Shown one piece after another: positions 10,523 to 54,434 of a stretch of DNA of 64,000 nt. The stretch is taken from positions 1 through 64,000 of the forward strand of contig JAEEMS010000018.1 of assembly GCA_016283355.1 (NCBI GenBank), written 5' to 3'. The notes under the pieces were generated by a model. That model did no database searches. It saw only the letters and a program-made list of their open reading frames with translations, and was not told the origin of the DNA. A program made the position numbers and the translations under genes. Positions within the stretch are counted from its first letter, which is position 1. Every line of letters starts with the position of its first letter. This stretch comes from Elusimicrobiaceae bacterium (GTDB lineage Bacteria; Elusimicrobiota; Elusimicrobia; Elusimicrobiales; Elusimicrobiaceae).

Positions 10523-11205
10523 CATTTACCGTGTTGGCGCATGCTGTAATAAGTATTTTTTCCAATAATAATGTGGTCGTGAACTGCGATGTTGAACAGC
10601 CGTGCGGCTGCGATGGTTTGCTGGGTAAATTCCAAATCTTGCTCGGAAGGGGCGGCATCTCCGGAAGGATGATTGTGTACCAGGATAATGGCAGATGCTT
10701 TTGCGGTTAACGCACTTTCCACAATTTTACGAGGAGAAACAACCACACGGTCAATTAATCCGGAAGACAAGGTTTGTGTGCCGATAATTGTGTTGCGTAC
10801 GGAAAGAAAAATAATTTCTACACATTCTTCTTGTTTGCCAGCCAGAGACGCTTTGCAGTAATCAATAATTTGTTGCGGGGAGCGTACTTCGATATTTTTG
10901 CGGACCGTTCCGAATGAGTAACGCTTGAAAAGGGCGCGAATCAGTTTTAGAAAATAAACGGAATTTTCCCCTATGCCGGGCACTTCCGCTAATTGTTGGG
11001 GTGAGGCATCTAATACTGCCGATAAAGAGCGGAATTTTTTAAGCAATGCCCACGCCAAGGGCTTGGTGTCTTTACGGGGGATAATATAGGTTAGCAATAA
11101 CTCCAGAACCTCGTGATCCAAAAACGGCTCCAAACCGGAGGTAATAAACTTCTCGCGCAACCGTTTGCGGTGTCCTTCATGCGAAACTGTTTTCTTTTGA
11201 GTCAT
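10519..11205 (-). CDS. radC: RadC family protein (JAB/MPN domain)
   Basis: A 228-residue RadC-type protein. The N-terminal part holds helix-hairpin-helix-like sequence (LAEVPGIGENS, about 75-85). The C-terminal JAB/MPN domain has the metal motif HNHPSGDAAPSEQD near 175, with His, His and Asp ligands intact. RadC was named for DNA repair, but its biochemical role is unsettled. AAGGA precedes the ATG. The gene stands alone, and its 3' end overlaps comF. Confidence 0.92.
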   Translation of the reverse strand: MTQKKTVSHEGHRKRLREKFITSGLEPFLDHEVLELLLTYIIPRKDTKPLAWALLKKFRSLSAVLDASPQQLAEVPGIGENSVYFLKLIRALFKRYSFGTVRKNIEVRSPQQIIDYCKASLAGKQEECVEIIFLSVRNTIIGTQTLSSGLIDRVVVSPRKIVESALTAKASAIILVHNHPSGDAAPSEQDLEFTQQTIAAARLFNIAVHDHIIIGKNTYYSMRQHGKC

Positions 11206-48105: not shown

Positions 48106-50193
48106 TTAGCTTAAATCAATTAAGTGCCAATTTTTCTGGTAAAGTTCTTGTAATTTTTGGCGGAACAAAAAATGCTCCGGTTTTTGAAGGGTAGGATCTT
48201 GTGTGAGTAATTCATCGCGGTCTTCAATCGCCCTGTACAAAATATCTCTGTCTTGGAAAATATCCCCGGCTTTAAATTCAAATTCTCCGCTTTGGCGCGT
48301 GCCTAAAATTTCGCCCGGTCCGCGCAACTGCATGTCGCGCTCGCCGATTTTAAATCCGTCGCGCGTGGCGCAAATGATGTCTACCCGTTCTTTGGCTACA
48401 CTGGTAGCATGTTGAGGTACCAAAATACAATAACTTTCGTGCTCGCCGCGCCCGATACGTCCGCGCAATTGGTGTAAGCTGGCCAACCCAAAACGTTCTG
48501 CGTTTTCAATTACCATTACCGTAGCATTCTTAACATCAATCCCTACTTCTATCACGGGGGTGGCCACCAAAATATCGGTTTTGTGCGCGGCAAAATCGTT
48601 CATAACGCTTTCTTTTTCGGTAGGAGTCATCTGCCCGTGCAGTACGGCCAGTTTGAACTGCGGAAATATTTTTTTAAGTTTTTCAAATTCTTCCGTAACG
48701 GCTTTTGCAGAGATTTTTTCACTCTCTTCAATAAGCGGAAACACGATATAGGCCTGCCGTCCTTTTTCTACTTCCATCCGCACGCGGTCATACGCCAAGC
48801 GTGAAGTGGCCGTTTCCGTTTGAATGGGTTGACGGCCGGGGGGAAGTTCACTTAACGTAGAAACGTCCAAATCGCCGTAGAATGCCAGTGCCAGGGTGCG
48901 GGGGATGGGAGTCGCGGTCATGGTCAGCAAATCAAGTTTAGAGGTTTTTTCCTTGAGTTTACTGCGTTGTTTAACGCCGAAACGGTGTTGCTCGTCAATG
49001 ACGGCCAGACGCAAATTATGAAATTGCACCGTGTCTTGAATAACGGCATGCGTTCCTATTAAAATTTGTAAAGTGCCCTCCGCCAATTCTTTTAAAATTT
49101 TCTTTTTAGCGGCAGCTTTGGTGCTGGAAGTGAGAACCGCCACTTTAACAGGTAAACCCCGGAGCATCTTTTTAAATGTTAAAAAATGTTGTTCGGCTAA
49201 AATTTCCGTTGGCGCCATCAAAGCGGCCTGATAATCGTTCTCTACAGCCAACAACATAGCGCACAACGCCACCACCGTTTTACCGGAACCCACGTCCCCT
49301 TGTAAAAGTCGATTCATAGGACGGGGGGAGGTGAGGTCGTTGAAAATTTCGTTAATTACTTTTTTTTGGCTGTTGGTAAATTCAAACCCCAACTGTTGGC
49401 GAAAAGGAGTTAATAAATTTTTTTTGATTTCGTATGAATAATCTTTCGATAGAACTTTTGTTTGGGTCCGTTTGATGCCCCATGCAGTAGCTAAAAGCAG
49501 AAATTCTTCATAGGCCAAACGGGCACGGGCCGTTTCCAATTCGCTCAGAGATCCCGGGAAATGCACAGCCCGTAGGGCTTGCGGCGCACTTAACAGCCCT
49601 CTTTTTTTTAATAGGGAGGGAGGTAAAATTTCCGGTTCGTTTGCCAGGGAAGACGTTTGCAGTGCCTCGTAAACAAATTGCCTGAATTGTTTATTGGTAA
49701 GTCCTTCGGTTAAGGCGTAAATAGGGGTTAATCGCCCGGCGTGCAACTGCGTGAGAGCATCATTCGCTACGTAATGCTCTTCTACTGTAATTTTGTTATC
49801 AAAAAAATTGTTTTTATGTTCCCGCTTCCCGATCACCCATACCTCACTATTTAACGTAAAATCTTTTTTAAGCGTGCCGAAAGGGTCAAACCGGAAACCG
49901 CGGTACATCCGTTTTTTAAACCACGTGCATTCCATTTCTTCGCCCTTTTCGCTTTGTAAAAACGCCTTAAAAATTAATACGCTGCGTGCGGGGATGGTTT
50001 GGGTGCGCAGTACACGCCCTTTGAATACAACGCGGTCATCGGCGTTATATAGGTTGGGGGGGACGCCTAAACGGCGGTCTTGATAGGTGCGCGGATAATA
50101 ATGGAGCAAATCTTCCACCGTATTTATTTCTAACCGGTCAAATAATTTGGCCTTAGCCGGGCCGATCCCTTTTAAGTATTGGATTTGCGTCAT
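48106..50193 (-). CDS. recG: ATP-dependent DNA helicase RecG
   Basis: A 695-residue RecG. The N-terminal wedge/OB domain is followed by superfamily-2 motor motifs: LLQGDVGSGKTVVAL (motif I, near 300), DEQHRFGV (DEQH, near 400), TMTATPIPRTLAL, and motif VI QLRGRIGRGEHESYC near 610. The terminal TRP-type sequence around RAIEDRDELL is normal. It regresses stalled forks and branch-migrates junctions. The -10 sequence is 6 nt from its ATG and no Shine-Dalgarno sequence is visible. Confidence 0.96.
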   Translation of the reverse strand: MTQIQYLKGIGPAKAKLFDRLEINTVEDLLHYYPRTYQDRRLGVPPNLYNADDRVVFKGRVLRTQTIPARSVLIFKAFLQSEKGEEMECTWFKKRMYRGFRFDPFGTLKKDFTLNSEVWVIGKREHKNNFFDNKITVEEHYVANDALTQLHAGRLTPIYALTEGLTNKQFRQFVYEALQTSSLANEPEILPPSLLKKRGLLSAPQALRAVHFPGSLSELETARARLAYEEFLLLATAWGIKRTQTKVLSKDYSYEIKKNLLTPFRQQLGFEFTNSQKKVINEIFNDLTSPRPMNRLLQGDVGSGKTVVALCAMLLAVENDYQAALMAPTEILAEQHFLTFKKMLRGLPVKVAVLTSSTKAAAKKKILKELAEGTLQILIGTHAVIQDTVQFHNLRLAVIDEQHRFGVKQRSKLKEKTSKLDLLTMTATPIPRTLALAFYGDLDVSTLSELPPGRQPIQTETATSRLAYDRVRMEVEKGRQAYIVFPLIEESEKISAKAVTEEFEKLKKIFPQFKLAVLHGQMTPTEKESVMNDFAAHKTDILVATPVIEVGIDVKNATVMVIENAERFGLASLHQLRGRIGRGEHESYCILVPQHATSVAKERVDIICATRDGFKIGERDMQLRGPGEILGTRQSGEFEFKAGDIFQDRDILYRAIEDRDELLTQDPTLQKPEHFLFRQKLQELYQKNWHLIDLS

Positions 50194-50214: not shown

Positions 50215-50317
50215 CCTTGTTTTTTAGAAAGAAACCCTTATACTTGAAATATAAGATGTTTTTAAATATGCGCGCTTCCTTTTGTCAAAACCGTTGGGTC
50301 TTTTGAGAAAGGCGGAG
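50215..50317 (+). repeat. 103-bp direct repeat, copy 1 (promoter/leader of first metallopeptidase)
   Basis: Aligns without gaps to 51468-51570 with only about six mismatches in 103. It contains a candidate promoter, TTGTTT (50218-50223), 15 bp, TATACT (50239-50244). The first bases, CCTTGTTTTTT, equal the right arm and T-run of the terminator that precedes copy 2, but the matching left arm is missing here. Confidence 0.9.
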
Positions 50318-50334
50318 CGTGTATTTGGGGATAA

Positions 50335-50424
50335 TTGGGAGTATTTCTTCCGGGTTTAAGTAAGCTGTGGACCGGGGGAGATTACGAGATTCATCCATCC
50401 AAGAATATTTTAGGATGTAATTAA
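50335..50424 (+). pseudogene. Remnant of a metallopeptidase paralog's signal-peptide region
   Basis: A 29-codon open segment reading LGVFLPGLSKLWTGGD... ends at TAA 50422-50424. It matches residues about 14-32 of the second paralog (LGMSLPGSSKPWTGED) in both protein and DNA. It has no usable start, a stop just upstream, and lies in the same frame as the following intact gene. I read it as the scar of a deleted third copy or of a failed duplication. Confidence 0.7.
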
Positions 50425-50442
50425 TTGCAAATGGTGGTGGTT

Positions 50443-51435
50443 ATGTTACGCAAAACGGTGAGTGTATTACTGATGATATGCGCGGGACTTTATGGTACCG
50501 CAACATCCTCTCGAGGAGTAGCGCTTGCACTGCAGGCGGAAAGCCCTTGGGCCGAAGAGAGAGATTCCGTCTCGGTGCGCAACGGTGAGATGCCGCTAAA
50601 TCATCGGATAGATAAAGAAAAAGAGTTAGAGCCCAGGGAAAAAGTCAAAGGCATGTATCGTCTTTCCCATCCTGAGAAAATAAACCTCTTGCCACTTATT
50701 TTAAAAGGGCAGACGCTTAAAATAAGTGTGTATCCGCCCGATGATGTCGAGGAAGAGAAGCTGTGGGCGGCCCAAAAAAAAGTGCGTCGCGCCTATAACG
50801 ATTGGTTTACCAATGCTGTCGAAATCATCAAAAGGCAAAATCGCACGGCAGAATTTGAAGATATACTACCTACTTTAGAGTGGGGGATTCCCATCCAATT
50901 TGTTGCATTTGCCTCCGATGAGGGACCGGAAGACCTATGGGTGAATATGGAAAGAACGTTGGAAGACGTATCGGAAATATGCAAATGCAGATGTACAGGA
51001 TGTCAGTTGCTGGGCGGGAAAGGAGTCCCCATGCAAATTACAGTAATGGAGAGGGGAACCTATAGTACATTGCTGCACGAGATTGGTCACACGTTGGGAT
51101 TGGCCGATGCTTACGATGAGGCATACGAAAAATTTGCATCCGATGTGTATGGTTCTAAAAAGCGGATTGCACAAACAGTAATGGATAAAAAAGAGGACAC
51201 CTTATTGAGCGAAGATGATGCGGACGGACTTATTAATATGATGGATGCCTGGAATATTTACTTTCTGCGGAAGAAATATCCACAGGATTGGTGCAGATAC
51301 GTACCCGAGCGGGTGCGTAATGGGTGGGATAGCTTAACCCGTTTCTCAAATGATGAACCGGCGGATCGTTATGCCATGGGAACGTCCGTGGAGAATTTAT
51401 CCAAACTGCCACGAACACAACGATGTGAGCACTAA
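50443..51435 (+). CDS. Secreted HExxH zinc metallopeptidase, first of tandem pair
   Basis: A 330-residue exported protein. The signal peptide is MLRKTVSVLLMICAGLYGTA (cut near 20-30). The catalytic motif is LLHEIGHTLGLADAY with His at 212 and 216, Glu 213, and a possible third ligand in the H-x-x-G-x-x-D tail, as in metzincin-like or M64-like families. A Cys cluster CKCRCTGC lies about 30 residues before it and is absent in the paralog. The C-terminal DADGLINMMDAW...YPQDWCRYVPERVRNGWD aligns with the paralog. Start uncertain: ATG 50443 is preferred for the signal peptide; ATG 50431 and TTG 50425 are in frame. Substrate unknown. Confidence 0.7.
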   Translation: MLRKTVSVLLMICAGLYGTATSSRGVALALQAESPWAEERDSVSVRNGEMPLNHRIDKEKELEPREKVKGMYRLSHPEKINLLPLILKGQTLKISVYPPDDVEEEKLWAAQKKVRRAYNDWFTNAVEIIKRQNRTAEFEDILPTLEWGIPIQFVAFASDEGPEDLWVNMERTLEDVSEICKCRCTGCQLLGGKGVPMQITVMERGTYSTLLHEIGHTLGLADAYDEAYEKFASDVYGSKKRIAQTVMDKKEDTLLSEDDADGLINMMDAWNIYFLRKKYPQDWCRYVPERVRNGWDSLTRFSNDEPADRYAMGTSVENLSKLPRTQRCEH

Positions 51436-51450
51436 AAGTATCCAAATCTA

Positions 51451-51479
51451 CAAGGGGGAAATTTTCCCCTTGTTTTTTA
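51451..51479 (+). terminator. Terminator after the first metallopeptidase
   Basis: CAAGGGG / CCCCTTG (51451-51457, 51466-51472) followed by TTTTTT. Its right arm is also the first part of the repeated leader copy 2. Confidence 0.85.
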
Positions 51480-51570
51480 GAAGGAAACCCTTATACTTGA
51501 AATATAAGATGTTTTTAAATATACGCGATTCCTTTTATCAAAACCGTTGGGTCTTTTGAAAAAGGTGGAG
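51468..51570 (+). repeat. 103-bp direct repeat, copy 2 (promoter/leader of second metallopeptidase)
   Basis: About 94% identical to 50215-50317, with the same candidate promoter (TATACT at 51492-51497). Similarity ends about 45 nt before the second gene's start codon. Confidence 0.9.
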
Positions 51571-51616
51571 AGAATGTTTTAAAAAAGGAGCCCTTTGCCG
51601 TGGTAGGGAGACAATT

Positions 51617-52594
51617 ATGAAAAGAATTTTTGCTGTTTTCTTTTTAATGGTGTTATTGGGCATGTCACTTCCGGGTTCGAGTAAACCGTGGACCGGGGAG
51701 GATTTGCATAATCAACCTGTCGAAGAAAGAGATAAAGAAATATACAGTTTGGTTCCCTTTGTGCTACATGATGAGGTGGTGCGGGTTAGTATTGATAACT
51801 CCGCATACAAAGATGCTAAAGGGGCGCACCGTGAGCAGGTGTTTGAGTATGTGAAATGGTTGTATCAACAATGGTTCCAAACGGCGACCCATGCTATAAG
51901 GCAGGCCGGGCGTGAAGAAGATTTTGCAGACATTTTGCCTGTTTTAGAGCGAGGCATAAAATTGGAATTTACATATGAAAATGAAGAAGAATGGGAGCGG
52001 ACGACTGATATACGTTTTCTCATTTTTCCCAATTTGAACGCAATGCGCCGAAACGTGGCGAAAGAGATGGAAGAAAAAAAGGATAATGCGTTATTAGGCC
52101 ATTATATGCGAGCAATCACCACTGACCCGATGGAAATAAGAGTGGCTGAGGACAGCGGTGAAGAAGTATGGTTGCATGAAATTGGGCACAGTTTGGGTTT
52201 TAAAGATGAATACGGATGGGAGGAAAATTCGAGGGAATCGGTAAAATATCGTTCTTTTGTCCAGCCCGAAAAAAGCGCCATGGGGGACGGAAAGAATAAA
52301 ATCACTTGTTTGGATACGGAAGGATTGGTCAATCTATTTGATGCATGGCGGGTACATGAGGAAAAATATTACCATCCTGAAAACTGGCCGGAACATCTGC
52401 CCGCCCGCATTGTAGAGGGATGGGAGGGATATTGTTCCAATGAGCAAAATGAGAAAGAGTTCTATGTGTTAGGTAGTTCTTTGAAAGCATTACAACAGCA
52501 AGAACTGGACGAAACAGAACGTGCTCTGGTGGAAGCAGCTAGCGCAGCTAGAGTACGCAATCGTGTCAAGAAAGCATTTGGGGTGGCAGAATGA
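51617..52594 (+). CDS. Secreted HExxH zinc metallopeptidase, second of tandem pair
   Basis: A 325-residue paralog of the previous gene with signal peptide MKRIFAVFFLMVLLGMSLPG. The active-site motif is WLHEIGHSLGFKDEYG (His187, Glu188, His191), close to the HExxHxxxxxDEY pattern of M64-like enzymes. Regions shared with copy 1 include WLYQQWFQTA...DFADILPVLERGI and EGLVNLFDAW...YHPENWPEHLPARIVEGW. The two proteins are clearly related but far more diverged than their leaders. GGGAG lies 7-9 nt before the ATG. The C-terminal helix is charged. Probably periplasmic or secreted; no substrate evidence. Confidence 0.75.
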   Translation: MKRIFAVFFLMVLLGMSLPGSSKPWTGEDLHNQPVEERDKEIYSLVPFVLHDEVVRVSIDNSAYKDAKGAHREQVFEYVKWLYQQWFQTATHAIRQAGREEDFADILPVLERGIKLEFTYENEEEWERTTDIRFLIFPNLNAMRRNVAKEMEEKKDNALLGHYMRAITTDPMEIRVAEDSGEEVWLHEIGHSLGFKDEYGWEENSRESVKYRSFVQPEKSAMGDGKNKITCLDTEGLVNLFDAWRVHEEKYYHPENWPEHLPARIVEGWEGYCSNEQNEKEFYVLGSSLKALQQQELDETERALVEAASAARVRNRVKKAFGVAE

Positions 52595-52700
52595 TAAGGA
52601 ATATGTAATTATGATGACTATGCATTTGCTCGTGCCTATGCGTATTTTCTTGTGAAGGCAGTTGTACTCATTTAAATAAAATTGAATTTAACGTGAAATG

Positions 52701-52728
52701 AAAAGCCCCGCACAATGCGGGGCTTTTT
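52701..52728. terminator. Bidirectional terminator between metallopeptidase and rpoD
   Basis: Stem AAAAGCCCCGCA / TGCGGGGCTTTTT with loop CAA (core 52705-52723). Between the metallopeptidase stop and this element the roughly 105 bases are A+T-rich and hold nothing I can identify. Confidence 0.9.
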
Positions 52729-52730
52729 GA

Positions 52731-54434
52731 TTACTCTTGATAATCTTTAAGCATCTTGGTTCGGCTGGGGTGGCGCAATTTGCGGATGGCCTTGGCCTCA
52801 ATTTGGCGCACACGCTCGCGTGTAACGTTAAACATTTTGCCCACTTCTTCCAGTGTACGCGGATAGCCCGAATCGATTCCAAAACGCAAACTAATGATTT
52901 TTGCTTCACGTTCGGAGAGTGTGGCTAACACGTCGGCCACTTCTTGTTTGCGCAAGAAGTCCACAGCGGCCATGGTGGGGTTTGGCCCGCTTTTATCTTC
53001 GATAAAATCTTCCAAGTTGGAATCTTCATCTTCTCCGATAGGAGTGGAAAGCGAAATGGGGTCTTGCATAATTTTGAGCACACTTTTCACTTTTTCTACC
53101 GATAAATGCAATGATTTGGAATAATCTTCCAACGTTGGTTCGCAGCCGTGTTCCTGGCGGAATTTGTTGGTAACTTTGGTAAGTTTGGAAACAAGTTCCT
53201 TCATGTGCACCGGAATACGGATGGTGTTGGCTTGGTCGGCAATGGCACGGTTGATGCTTTGCCGGATCCACCAAGTAGCATACGTGGAGAATTTGAATCC
53301 GCGTTTGTATTCGAATTTTTCCACAGCTTTCATGAGCCCCAAACCGCCTTCTTGAATGAGGTCTGAGAGTTCCAAATTGGAATTGACGTGTTTTTTTGCA
53401 ATAGATACCACCAAACGCAAGTTGGCTTTGATGAGTTTTAATTTATCCTGCAAAATCATATCTTCAAAGAAGATAATTCGGTTGTTGAACGCAATAAATT
53501 CCCGTTCCGTCATGGGCAGCGTTTCCACCATTTGATTGTGGCGGCGGCGGACATCCTCGATGTTAGCCAAGGCACGTTCCAATTCCGGCAACGTGAATTT
53601 AGTGGCTTTCTTGAATGCTTTTTCCGTCAGTTTTTTGGCTTTGTAATCTCGCACCAATTTTTTAACAAATTCGTACGGGCCGAAAAATTCGTCAAAACGC
53701 TTCATGTCGTTGGTGGTTTCTTGCAAACGGTCCGCCAAGGTTTTGATTTTATTGGTTAAACGTTTGATTTTGTTTTGGTTTAAATTCAATTTGTTGATGC
53801 GTGCCACCACTTCTTTTTGTTTGGCTTCCAATTTTTCAATGCAATGGTTGCGTTTTTTATCGGAGAGGTGTGCATCTTGCAACGTTTTCATCAGCTTAGT
53901 AATTTCTTGCTCGCGTTTGCCGATAAATTGTGCGGCTTCTTTAAGTTTTTTGCGCATGTTGTTAAGTTCGCGCGTGGTACGTTTTCCGCGAGGCATCAAT
54001 TCTTTGGTGGTCATTTCTTCCTGGTCTACAAGTTCTTCCCAGTTGCAAATTTCACGCATGGTTATAGGAGATTCGAGTACCAGCTTGCGCAATTCTTTTT
54101 CCCGTTCGCGGATGTTGCGCGCCAGCGTTACTTCTTCGTCGCGTGACAAGAGCGGTACTTTTCCCATTTCGGACAAGTACATCCGGATAGAGTTGGAAAT
54201 ATCCAACCCTGCGGCAGCCCAATCTTCCGATACGGTTTCTTTTTCCGCCTCTTTGTACTTTTTTTGGTCCACTACCTGGATCCCCATTTCATCGAGCGTA
54301 CCCATCACATTGTCGATGTCTTCGGCGGACATATCCGAAGCGGCGATAGAGCGGTTCAAATCTTCCAGTTGCAGGTAGCCGCTTTCTTTTCCTTCTTGCA
54401 CTAATTCTTTAAGCGATTTATTTGCCGATGCCAT
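52731..54434 (-). CDS. rpoD: Primary sigma factor RpoD
   Basis: A 567-residue sigma-70. Short region 1.1-like N-terminus, region 1.2 ([27 protein letters not shown] near 80-107), a charged non-conserved insert (about 130-300), region 2 with [42 protein letters not shown] near 385, region 3, and region 4 with [28 protein letters not shown] at the end. It directs RNA polymerase to TTGACA/TATAAT promoters, consistent with those seen here. Last gene of rpsU-dnaG-rpoD, 8 nt after dnaG. Confidence 0.95.

Follow-up and report, generated by a model that had tools for sequence, protein, structure and literature searches.

Probable recombination at a secreted-protease slot between recG and rpoD in Elusimicrobiaceae, and a covarying leader hairpin linked to it

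Introduction

How can a noncoding leader stay nearly identical in front of two neighbouring genes whose proteins have diverged strongly? This question is raised by a pair of genes for secreted HExxH proteins located between recG and rpoD in an Elusimicrobiaceae bacterium (GCA_016283355.1). The stretch of DNA analysed, here called the window, comprises 64,000 nucleotides of contig JAEEMS010000018.1 (positions 1 to 64,000, forward strand). The original prediction named three possible causes: gene conversion of the leader, selection on an RNA element, or diversifying selection on the proteins. The reading that we favour, with a probability of roughly 0.6, is a recombining protease locus in which the units keep a leader composed of a promoter and an RNA hairpin, and the gene bodies diverge or are replaced; the window pair would then be the remnant of a shrunken array, with its first leader derived from a deleted gene, designated X.

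Two window genes and their leaders

The main features of the locus are as follows.

48106-50193, minus strand: recG, left flank of the slot; 695-aa ORF recognised as RecG from its sequence
50215-50317, plus strand: leader copy 1 (promoter, hairpin and Shine-Dalgarno sequence, SD); 97/103 identical to copy 2, positioned next to recG like leader 1 of the relative G003
50443-51435, plus strand: gene 1, secreted HExxH protein of 330 aa, short form (HEIGHTLGLADAY); family profile E 2.3e-79
51468-51570, plus strand: leader copy 2
51617-52594, plus strand: gene 2, secreted HExxH protein of 325 aa, short form, predicted metzincin-like fold (HEIGHSLGFKDEY); AF2 pLDDT 86
52731-54434, minus strand: rpoD, right flank of the slot; 567-aa ORF recognised as RpoD from its sequence, the same flank as in relatives

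Both ORFs are intact, and each has a signal-peptide-like N-terminus and the HEIGH motif. The two leaders are identical at 97 of 103 positions (94%, E ~1e-40) without gaps, and the mismatches, placed at 50230, 50270, 50275, 50284, 50307 and 50313, confirm the earlier count of about six. BLASTP aligns 269 aa of the proteins with 27% identity (E 1e-25), and identity is 30% when 285 aligned codons are compared. The coding DNA is 45% identical, with 33% identity at third positions and a pS of 0.75, indicating that synonymous change between the two genes is saturated. The coding sequences are thus less similar than the leaders in every alignment, and the claimed divergence of the proteins despite like leaders is borne out.

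The leader occurs only twice in the whole 1.40 Mb genome, and strong matches to its hairpin, described below, are found only upstream of proteases at this site, in agreement with the view that it is not a random many-copy repeat. A dispersed repeat was ruled out accordingly; only the promoter half resembles other promoters of the genus. The elements around the two start sites are listed here.

50217-50244, plus strand: sigma70-like promoter TTGTTT-16-TATACT, copy 1 (pattern match)
51450-51473, plus strand: terminator-like hairpin of gene 1, whose 3' arm and T-run overlap the -35 region of promoter 2
51470-51497, plus strand: sigma70-like promoter TTGTTT-16-TATACT, copy 2 (pattern match)
51497-51525, plus strand: second sigma70-like promoter, TTGAAA-17-TATACG, of leader 2
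51574-51582, plus strand: minimal ORF ATG TTT TAA, directly after the SD of the leader 2 hairpin
52699-52729, plus strand: terminator-like hairpin between gene 2 and the convergent rpoD

The overlap of the gene 1 terminator with promoter 2 has a counterpart in G003 (L088 2106-2133). Gene 2 uses a second SD (GGGAG) that is distinct from the one next to the hairpin. The CCCTTGTTTTTT...TTATACT stretch of the leader promoter recurs within the genus, and some of its occurrences precede unrelated genes. Near position 1501 of L039, L044 and L055, similar CCCTTGTTTTTT...TTATACT-like promoters precede a conserved, noncoding-looking region upstream of a YggS-like gene, which is perhaps an RNA gene. Separately, a TATACT-like -10 box lies ~4-6 nt before the ATG of family genes in L120, L144 and L141, suggesting leaderless mRNAs.

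The recG-rpoD slot in related genomes

With the N-terminal 200 aa of RecG as the query, recG was located in 61 of 66 genomes of the genus, and the adjoining regions were read for 57 of the 61. Most genomes in which recG and rpoD are neighbours hold at least one member of the HExxH family between them, all reading away from recG, and the usual content is one gene of ~480-540 aa. Arrays are present in G003 (six genes), G009 (at least three, plus one beside rpoD on another contig), G069, G007, G071 and the window. The slot is empty in a few genomes with adjacent recG and rpoD (e.g., L096, L115 and L121), and in another set the two genes are not neighbours within the region read. The pair had originally been regarded as accessory among housekeeping genes, which holds in part, since most genomes with recG and rpoD side by side have this slot in common. 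Strong matches to the family are limited to the host's own taxonomic family among the 295 genomes of the phylum searched. In three genomes the slot genes are broken by stops or frameshifts and represent decaying copies (L095 1383-2829 in G012, L090 1395-2849 in G021 and L109 1338-2860 in G028).

The contrast between leaders and bodies recurs in these arrays. Of the six genes arrayed in G003, numbers 1, 2, 4 and 6 are preceded by a leader, and the leaderless genes 3 and 5 begin 14-16 nt after the previous gene; the 60-nt leaders of genes 1, 2 and 4 are 87-93% identical, with bodies at 54-65% nucleotide identity. Two other arrays, which lack the hairpin (L187 and L188), have 5' ends 84-85% identical over ~200 bp and diverged bodies.

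A covarying hairpin next to the Shine-Dalgarno sequence

The end of the 103-bp block coincides exactly with a 40-nt hairpin and the SD, present in the window as two copies.

50278-50317, plus strand: SD-proximal RNA hairpin, copy 1; covariation, E 5e-8 with a model built solely from other genomes
51531-51570, plus strand: SD-proximal RNA hairpin, copy 2; covariation, E 2e-8 with the independent model

Ten copies are found in five genomes (two in the window, four in G003, two in G009, and one each in G063 and G069). Across the ten sequences, 90% of the cells of the 13 base pairs are paired, compared to 45-69% when the structure is slid, and six of the 13 pairs are altered on both sides in a compensatory manner. 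The covariation score was reached by none of 500 shuffles, and the three differences between leaders 1 and 2 within the hairpin all fall at unpaired positions.

A covariance search of the leader had been suggested with the original prediction. Besides the compensatory pairs, it yielded two models, built from disjoint halves of the set, that find each other's members. The model from G009, G063 and G069 alone recovers both window copies (E 2e-8 and 5e-8) and three of the four G003 copies, and that from the window and G003 alone recovers both G009 copies and the G069 copy (E 2e-4 to 2e-3) and, weakly, that of G063 (E 0.13); over the 420-490 kb searched, neither gave another match better than E 0.5. 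A model of all ten, run on 90 genomes of the family, returned only these ten as strong matches (E <= 1.3e-8; next E 1e-4), every one heading a protease gene at the recG-rpoD site. The genomes with the hairpin all belong to one well-supported nine-genome clade, whose other members are without it. The leader matches no Rfam family above the gathering threshold, the best being SraG on the opposite strand with 24.1 against 50 bits. The only Rfam RNA of the window is a tmRNA (RF00023) at positions 1-262 on the plus strand, cut by the left end of the window.

These data support selection on an RNA element, one of the three causes first proposed, in that the last 40 nt of the leader form a covarying hairpin linked only to these genes. 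The leaders could instead be alike merely through recent copying, by gene conversion or partial duplication, with a functionless hairpin and fast-evolving bodies. Consistent with copying, leaders are closer within a genome (94% for the window pair and 87-93% in G003) than between genomes (72-80% for the hairpin of window leader 2 against G003), and the portion 5' of the hairpin, promoter aside, has no match in other genomes. Copying does not readily explain why the hairpin pairs vary in a compensatory way between genomes, why the covariance model of one group recovers the other, or why the distance from hairpin to ATG is constant at 49-51 nt in eight leaders, all of other genomes. We therefore regard copying alone as a rather unlikely explanation.

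The hairpin lies at the predicted 5' end of the transcript and adjoins or overlaps the SD, as do fourU and ROSE thermometers and 5' stabilisers. An RNA thermometer masking the SD at low temperature would be in line with the pairing of CCUU(U) in the 5' arm with AAGG just before or overlapping the SD, which follows immediately after the stem. However, the GGAG core lies outside the stem, little opening is computed between 25 and 42 C for most leaders, and no thermometer family of Rfam is matched; we give this role a low probability. The element also differs from these known hairpins in having its own conserved loop and bulge and in being confined to one gene family in one clade. The hairpin presumably acts on the protease mRNAs through the initiation of their translation or the stability of their 5' ends. 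In the window, the distance from hairpin to start is 86 nt for leader 2 and 165 nt for leader 1, compared to 49-51 nt elsewhere, indicating that the window leaders are altered, and any translational role of the hairpin may be weakened there.

Replacement of gene bodies behind the leaders

In near-identical genomes (flank dS 0.04-0.14), the slot proteases are only 40-60% identical. For G020 and G087, dS is 0.04-0.07 in recG, rpoD and dnaG, and the protease has 46% amino acid identity with saturated dS; G020/G001 and G001/G087 likewise combine near-identical flanks with a strongly diverged slot gene. In G065 and G024, a flank dS of 0.09-0.14 accompanies a protease dS of 1.5 and 60% amino acid identity. 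The drop in identity coincides with the edges of the slot gene in these pairs, a pattern compatible with transfer accompanied by flank recombination as well as with the reciprocal loss of old tandem copies. The converse is seen in G069_2 and G009_3, which are 97% identical in nucleotides from 15 nt before the ATG in genomes whose recG dS is 0.86, and which stand under different leaders, one behind a hairpin leader and the other as the second gene of a unit. Transfer fits this pair better than reciprocal loss, provided that the G069 contig, whose end falls within the swapped gene, is not a chimeric assembly. Collectively, protein diversity at the slot involves the replacement of whole gene bodies.

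Between the slot protease and rpoD of G024 (L092 10104-10628, minus strand, and 10762-11031, plus strand), there is a pilin-like ORF beside a duplicated rpoD 3' end. The ORF and the duplicate are a trace of insertion by recombination.

Gene conversion or recombination, another of the causes first proposed, is therefore supported for the family, since leaders and signal peptides are homogenised within the arrays of relatives and bodies move between leaders. Diversifying selection on the proteins finds no support in dN/dS, which is saturated for the window pair and 0.19-0.30 in closer pairs. Where measurable, these values give no sign of positive selection over the gene as a whole.

The change of bodies behind leaders is also what would be expected if the palindromic leader worked as DNA, either as a repressor operator or as a recombination site that moves gene bodies as in the vpma and vsp loci of mycoplasmas. 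In Mycoplasma agalactiae, the conserved 5' untranslated and signal-peptide regions of Vpma bear recombination sites (PMC2268961). The Vpma and Vsp (M. bovis) variable-lipoprotein loci resemble the slot as tandem single-locus families in which the bodies diverge and the 5' untranslated and signal-peptide regions are conserved (PMC2268961). In those loci, one active promoter is joined to silent genes by Xer1-driven inversions, whereas most slot units have their own promoter, all are read in one direction and the products are proteases; a promoter-like sequence precedes each window unit and four units of G003. No adjacent site-specific recombinase was recognised among the ORFs in 46-57 kb, and the breakpoint of the G069/G009 pair is at the start codon, 3' of the hairpin. 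The U-G pair kept in nine of the ten hairpin sequences and the conserved one-sided bulge in the 3' arm point to RNA rather than to a DNA palindrome. A role of the leader as DNA is thus improbable in our view.

Origin of the leader before gene 1

The body replacement seen in relatives leaves the question of how the window pair itself arose. A second matching block, overlooked in the first reading, is informative here.

50334-50383, plus strand: relic of a signal-peptide coding region; 39/50 identical to 51655-51704 inside gene 2

This block lies on the noncoding side of gene 1, and its partner falls within gene 2, where the signal peptide is encoded. Translated in frame, the relic gives LGVFLPGLSKLWTGGD (50335-50382), against LGMSLPGSSKPWTGED in gene 2; its start codon is absent, and it is in frame with gene 1, with a TAA between them. 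Furthermore, the leader repeat begins inside the 3' arm of the terminator-like hairpin at 51450-51473, so that copy 1 is without the other arm. The relic and this starting point indicate that what precedes gene 1 is the 5' stub of a different gene, similar to gene 2; judged from these remains, the leader looks as if it came from a deleted neighbour instead of belonging to gene 1. Fewer changes have accumulated in the leader (6 differences in 103 positions) than in the signal-peptide stub (11 in 50; Fisher p 0.005), as expected if the leader is still functional.

The kinship of gene 1 is consistent with such an origin. In the tree it groups with G009b (support 99/89), which is without the hairpin and starts ~10 nt after the stop of the upstream reading frame. 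Gene 2 is placed on a long branch, which leaves its precise relationships uncertain. Beside recG, the window's leader 1 takes the position that leader 1 has in the G003 array. It could be supposed that the window array shrank to two short genes and that its first unit lost the opening gene, X, by deletion. The promoter, the hairpin and a stub of the signal peptide of X would have remained before gene 1, which would otherwise be a second-in-operon gene without its own leader. The 94%-identical leaders would then have belonged to X and gene 2, and genes 1 and 2 would be old paralogs. This is the simplest account for the window, although the deletion is itself deduced from the remains, and no close strain with an intact gene X was found.

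A lineage-specific family of metzincin-like proteins

Among 41 members of the family, H187, E188, G190 and H191 (HExGH) are invariant and G194 and D197 nearly so, which corresponds to the HExxHxxGxx(H/D) zinc motif of the metzincin clan; an invariant downstream Met (M222) and D242 are also shared. The first 13 PDB matches of the gene 2 AF2 model (pLDDT 86) are all metzincins; the best four have probabilities of 0.89-0.95, but E values are no better than 3e-3 and TM is low, at 0.19-0.43. Profile searches with the sequences gave weak matches to serralysin, snapalysin, matrixins and IgA protease. None of the curated cut-offs of the M6, M10, M12, snapalysin and serralysin families is reached (best 20.4 bits versus 110.8 for TIGR03296), and all Pfam matches of the window proteins are below cut-off. 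In the long forms (model pLDDT 89), a further domain rich in beta structure is present at the C-terminus; it is absent from the window genes and has a weak Rhs/YD-repeat match (8h8a, E 0.003) and no convincing fold match.

The family resembles known metzincins (serralysin, snapalysin, M10, M12, M6 and M64) in its HExxHxLGxxD motif, its downstream Met and its best fold matches, which are to ADAM, snake-venom and astacin enzymes, but falls under every curated family cut-off and has long forms whose additional domain is not confidently assigned. The motif, the signal peptide and the modelled fold suggest secretion and zinc-dependent proteolysis, and the enzymes probably act on extracellular protein in the gut. 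A defence system was considered and rejected, the sole PADLOC match, PD-T4-4_B, being weak (E 0.047) and taken as chance. An origin from phages or viruses was also rejected, as a search of viral contigs with gene 2 gave no relative. A literature search found nothing on this protease family. The first description of the pair as a candidate undescribed system is thus fair for the locus; the enzyme clan itself is already known.

Concluding remarks

Slot synteny, covariation and specificity of the hairpin, the relic signal peptide, similar arrays in relatives, and replaced bodies between near-identical flanks are all directly observed. The favoured reading joins them as follows. The recG-rpoD interval would be a recombining site that houses secreted metzincin-like zinc proteases of a family specific to this lineage. 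Most units of one clade would open with a shared leader comprising a strong sigma70-type promoter, a 5'-end hairpin of ~40 nt and then the SD. This leader would be retained by selection on hairpin and promoter together with recombination within arrays, and the bodies would diverge or be replaced via duplication, loss and transfer. The puzzle of a conserved leader before a diverged protein is thereby explained without an exotic mechanism.

Near-identical flanks around a replaced secreted protein are usually tied to host interaction, competitors or changing substrates. The present locus is a chromosomal site of this kind in an almost uncultured gut phylum, at which the secreted protease is replaced between housekeeping neighbours that are near identical (dS 0.04-0.14). 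The analysis has also provided a small, specific and covarying RNA element suited to reporter testing. More tentatively, and as a possibility that we hold at less than even odds, an undescribed cis-regulatory RNA hairpin may head a fixed-site protease locus in gut Elusimicrobiaceae, where genomes exchange bodies with one another behind retained leaders and arriving variants come under the same control, so that the locus would constitute a modular diversification system of secreted enzymes.
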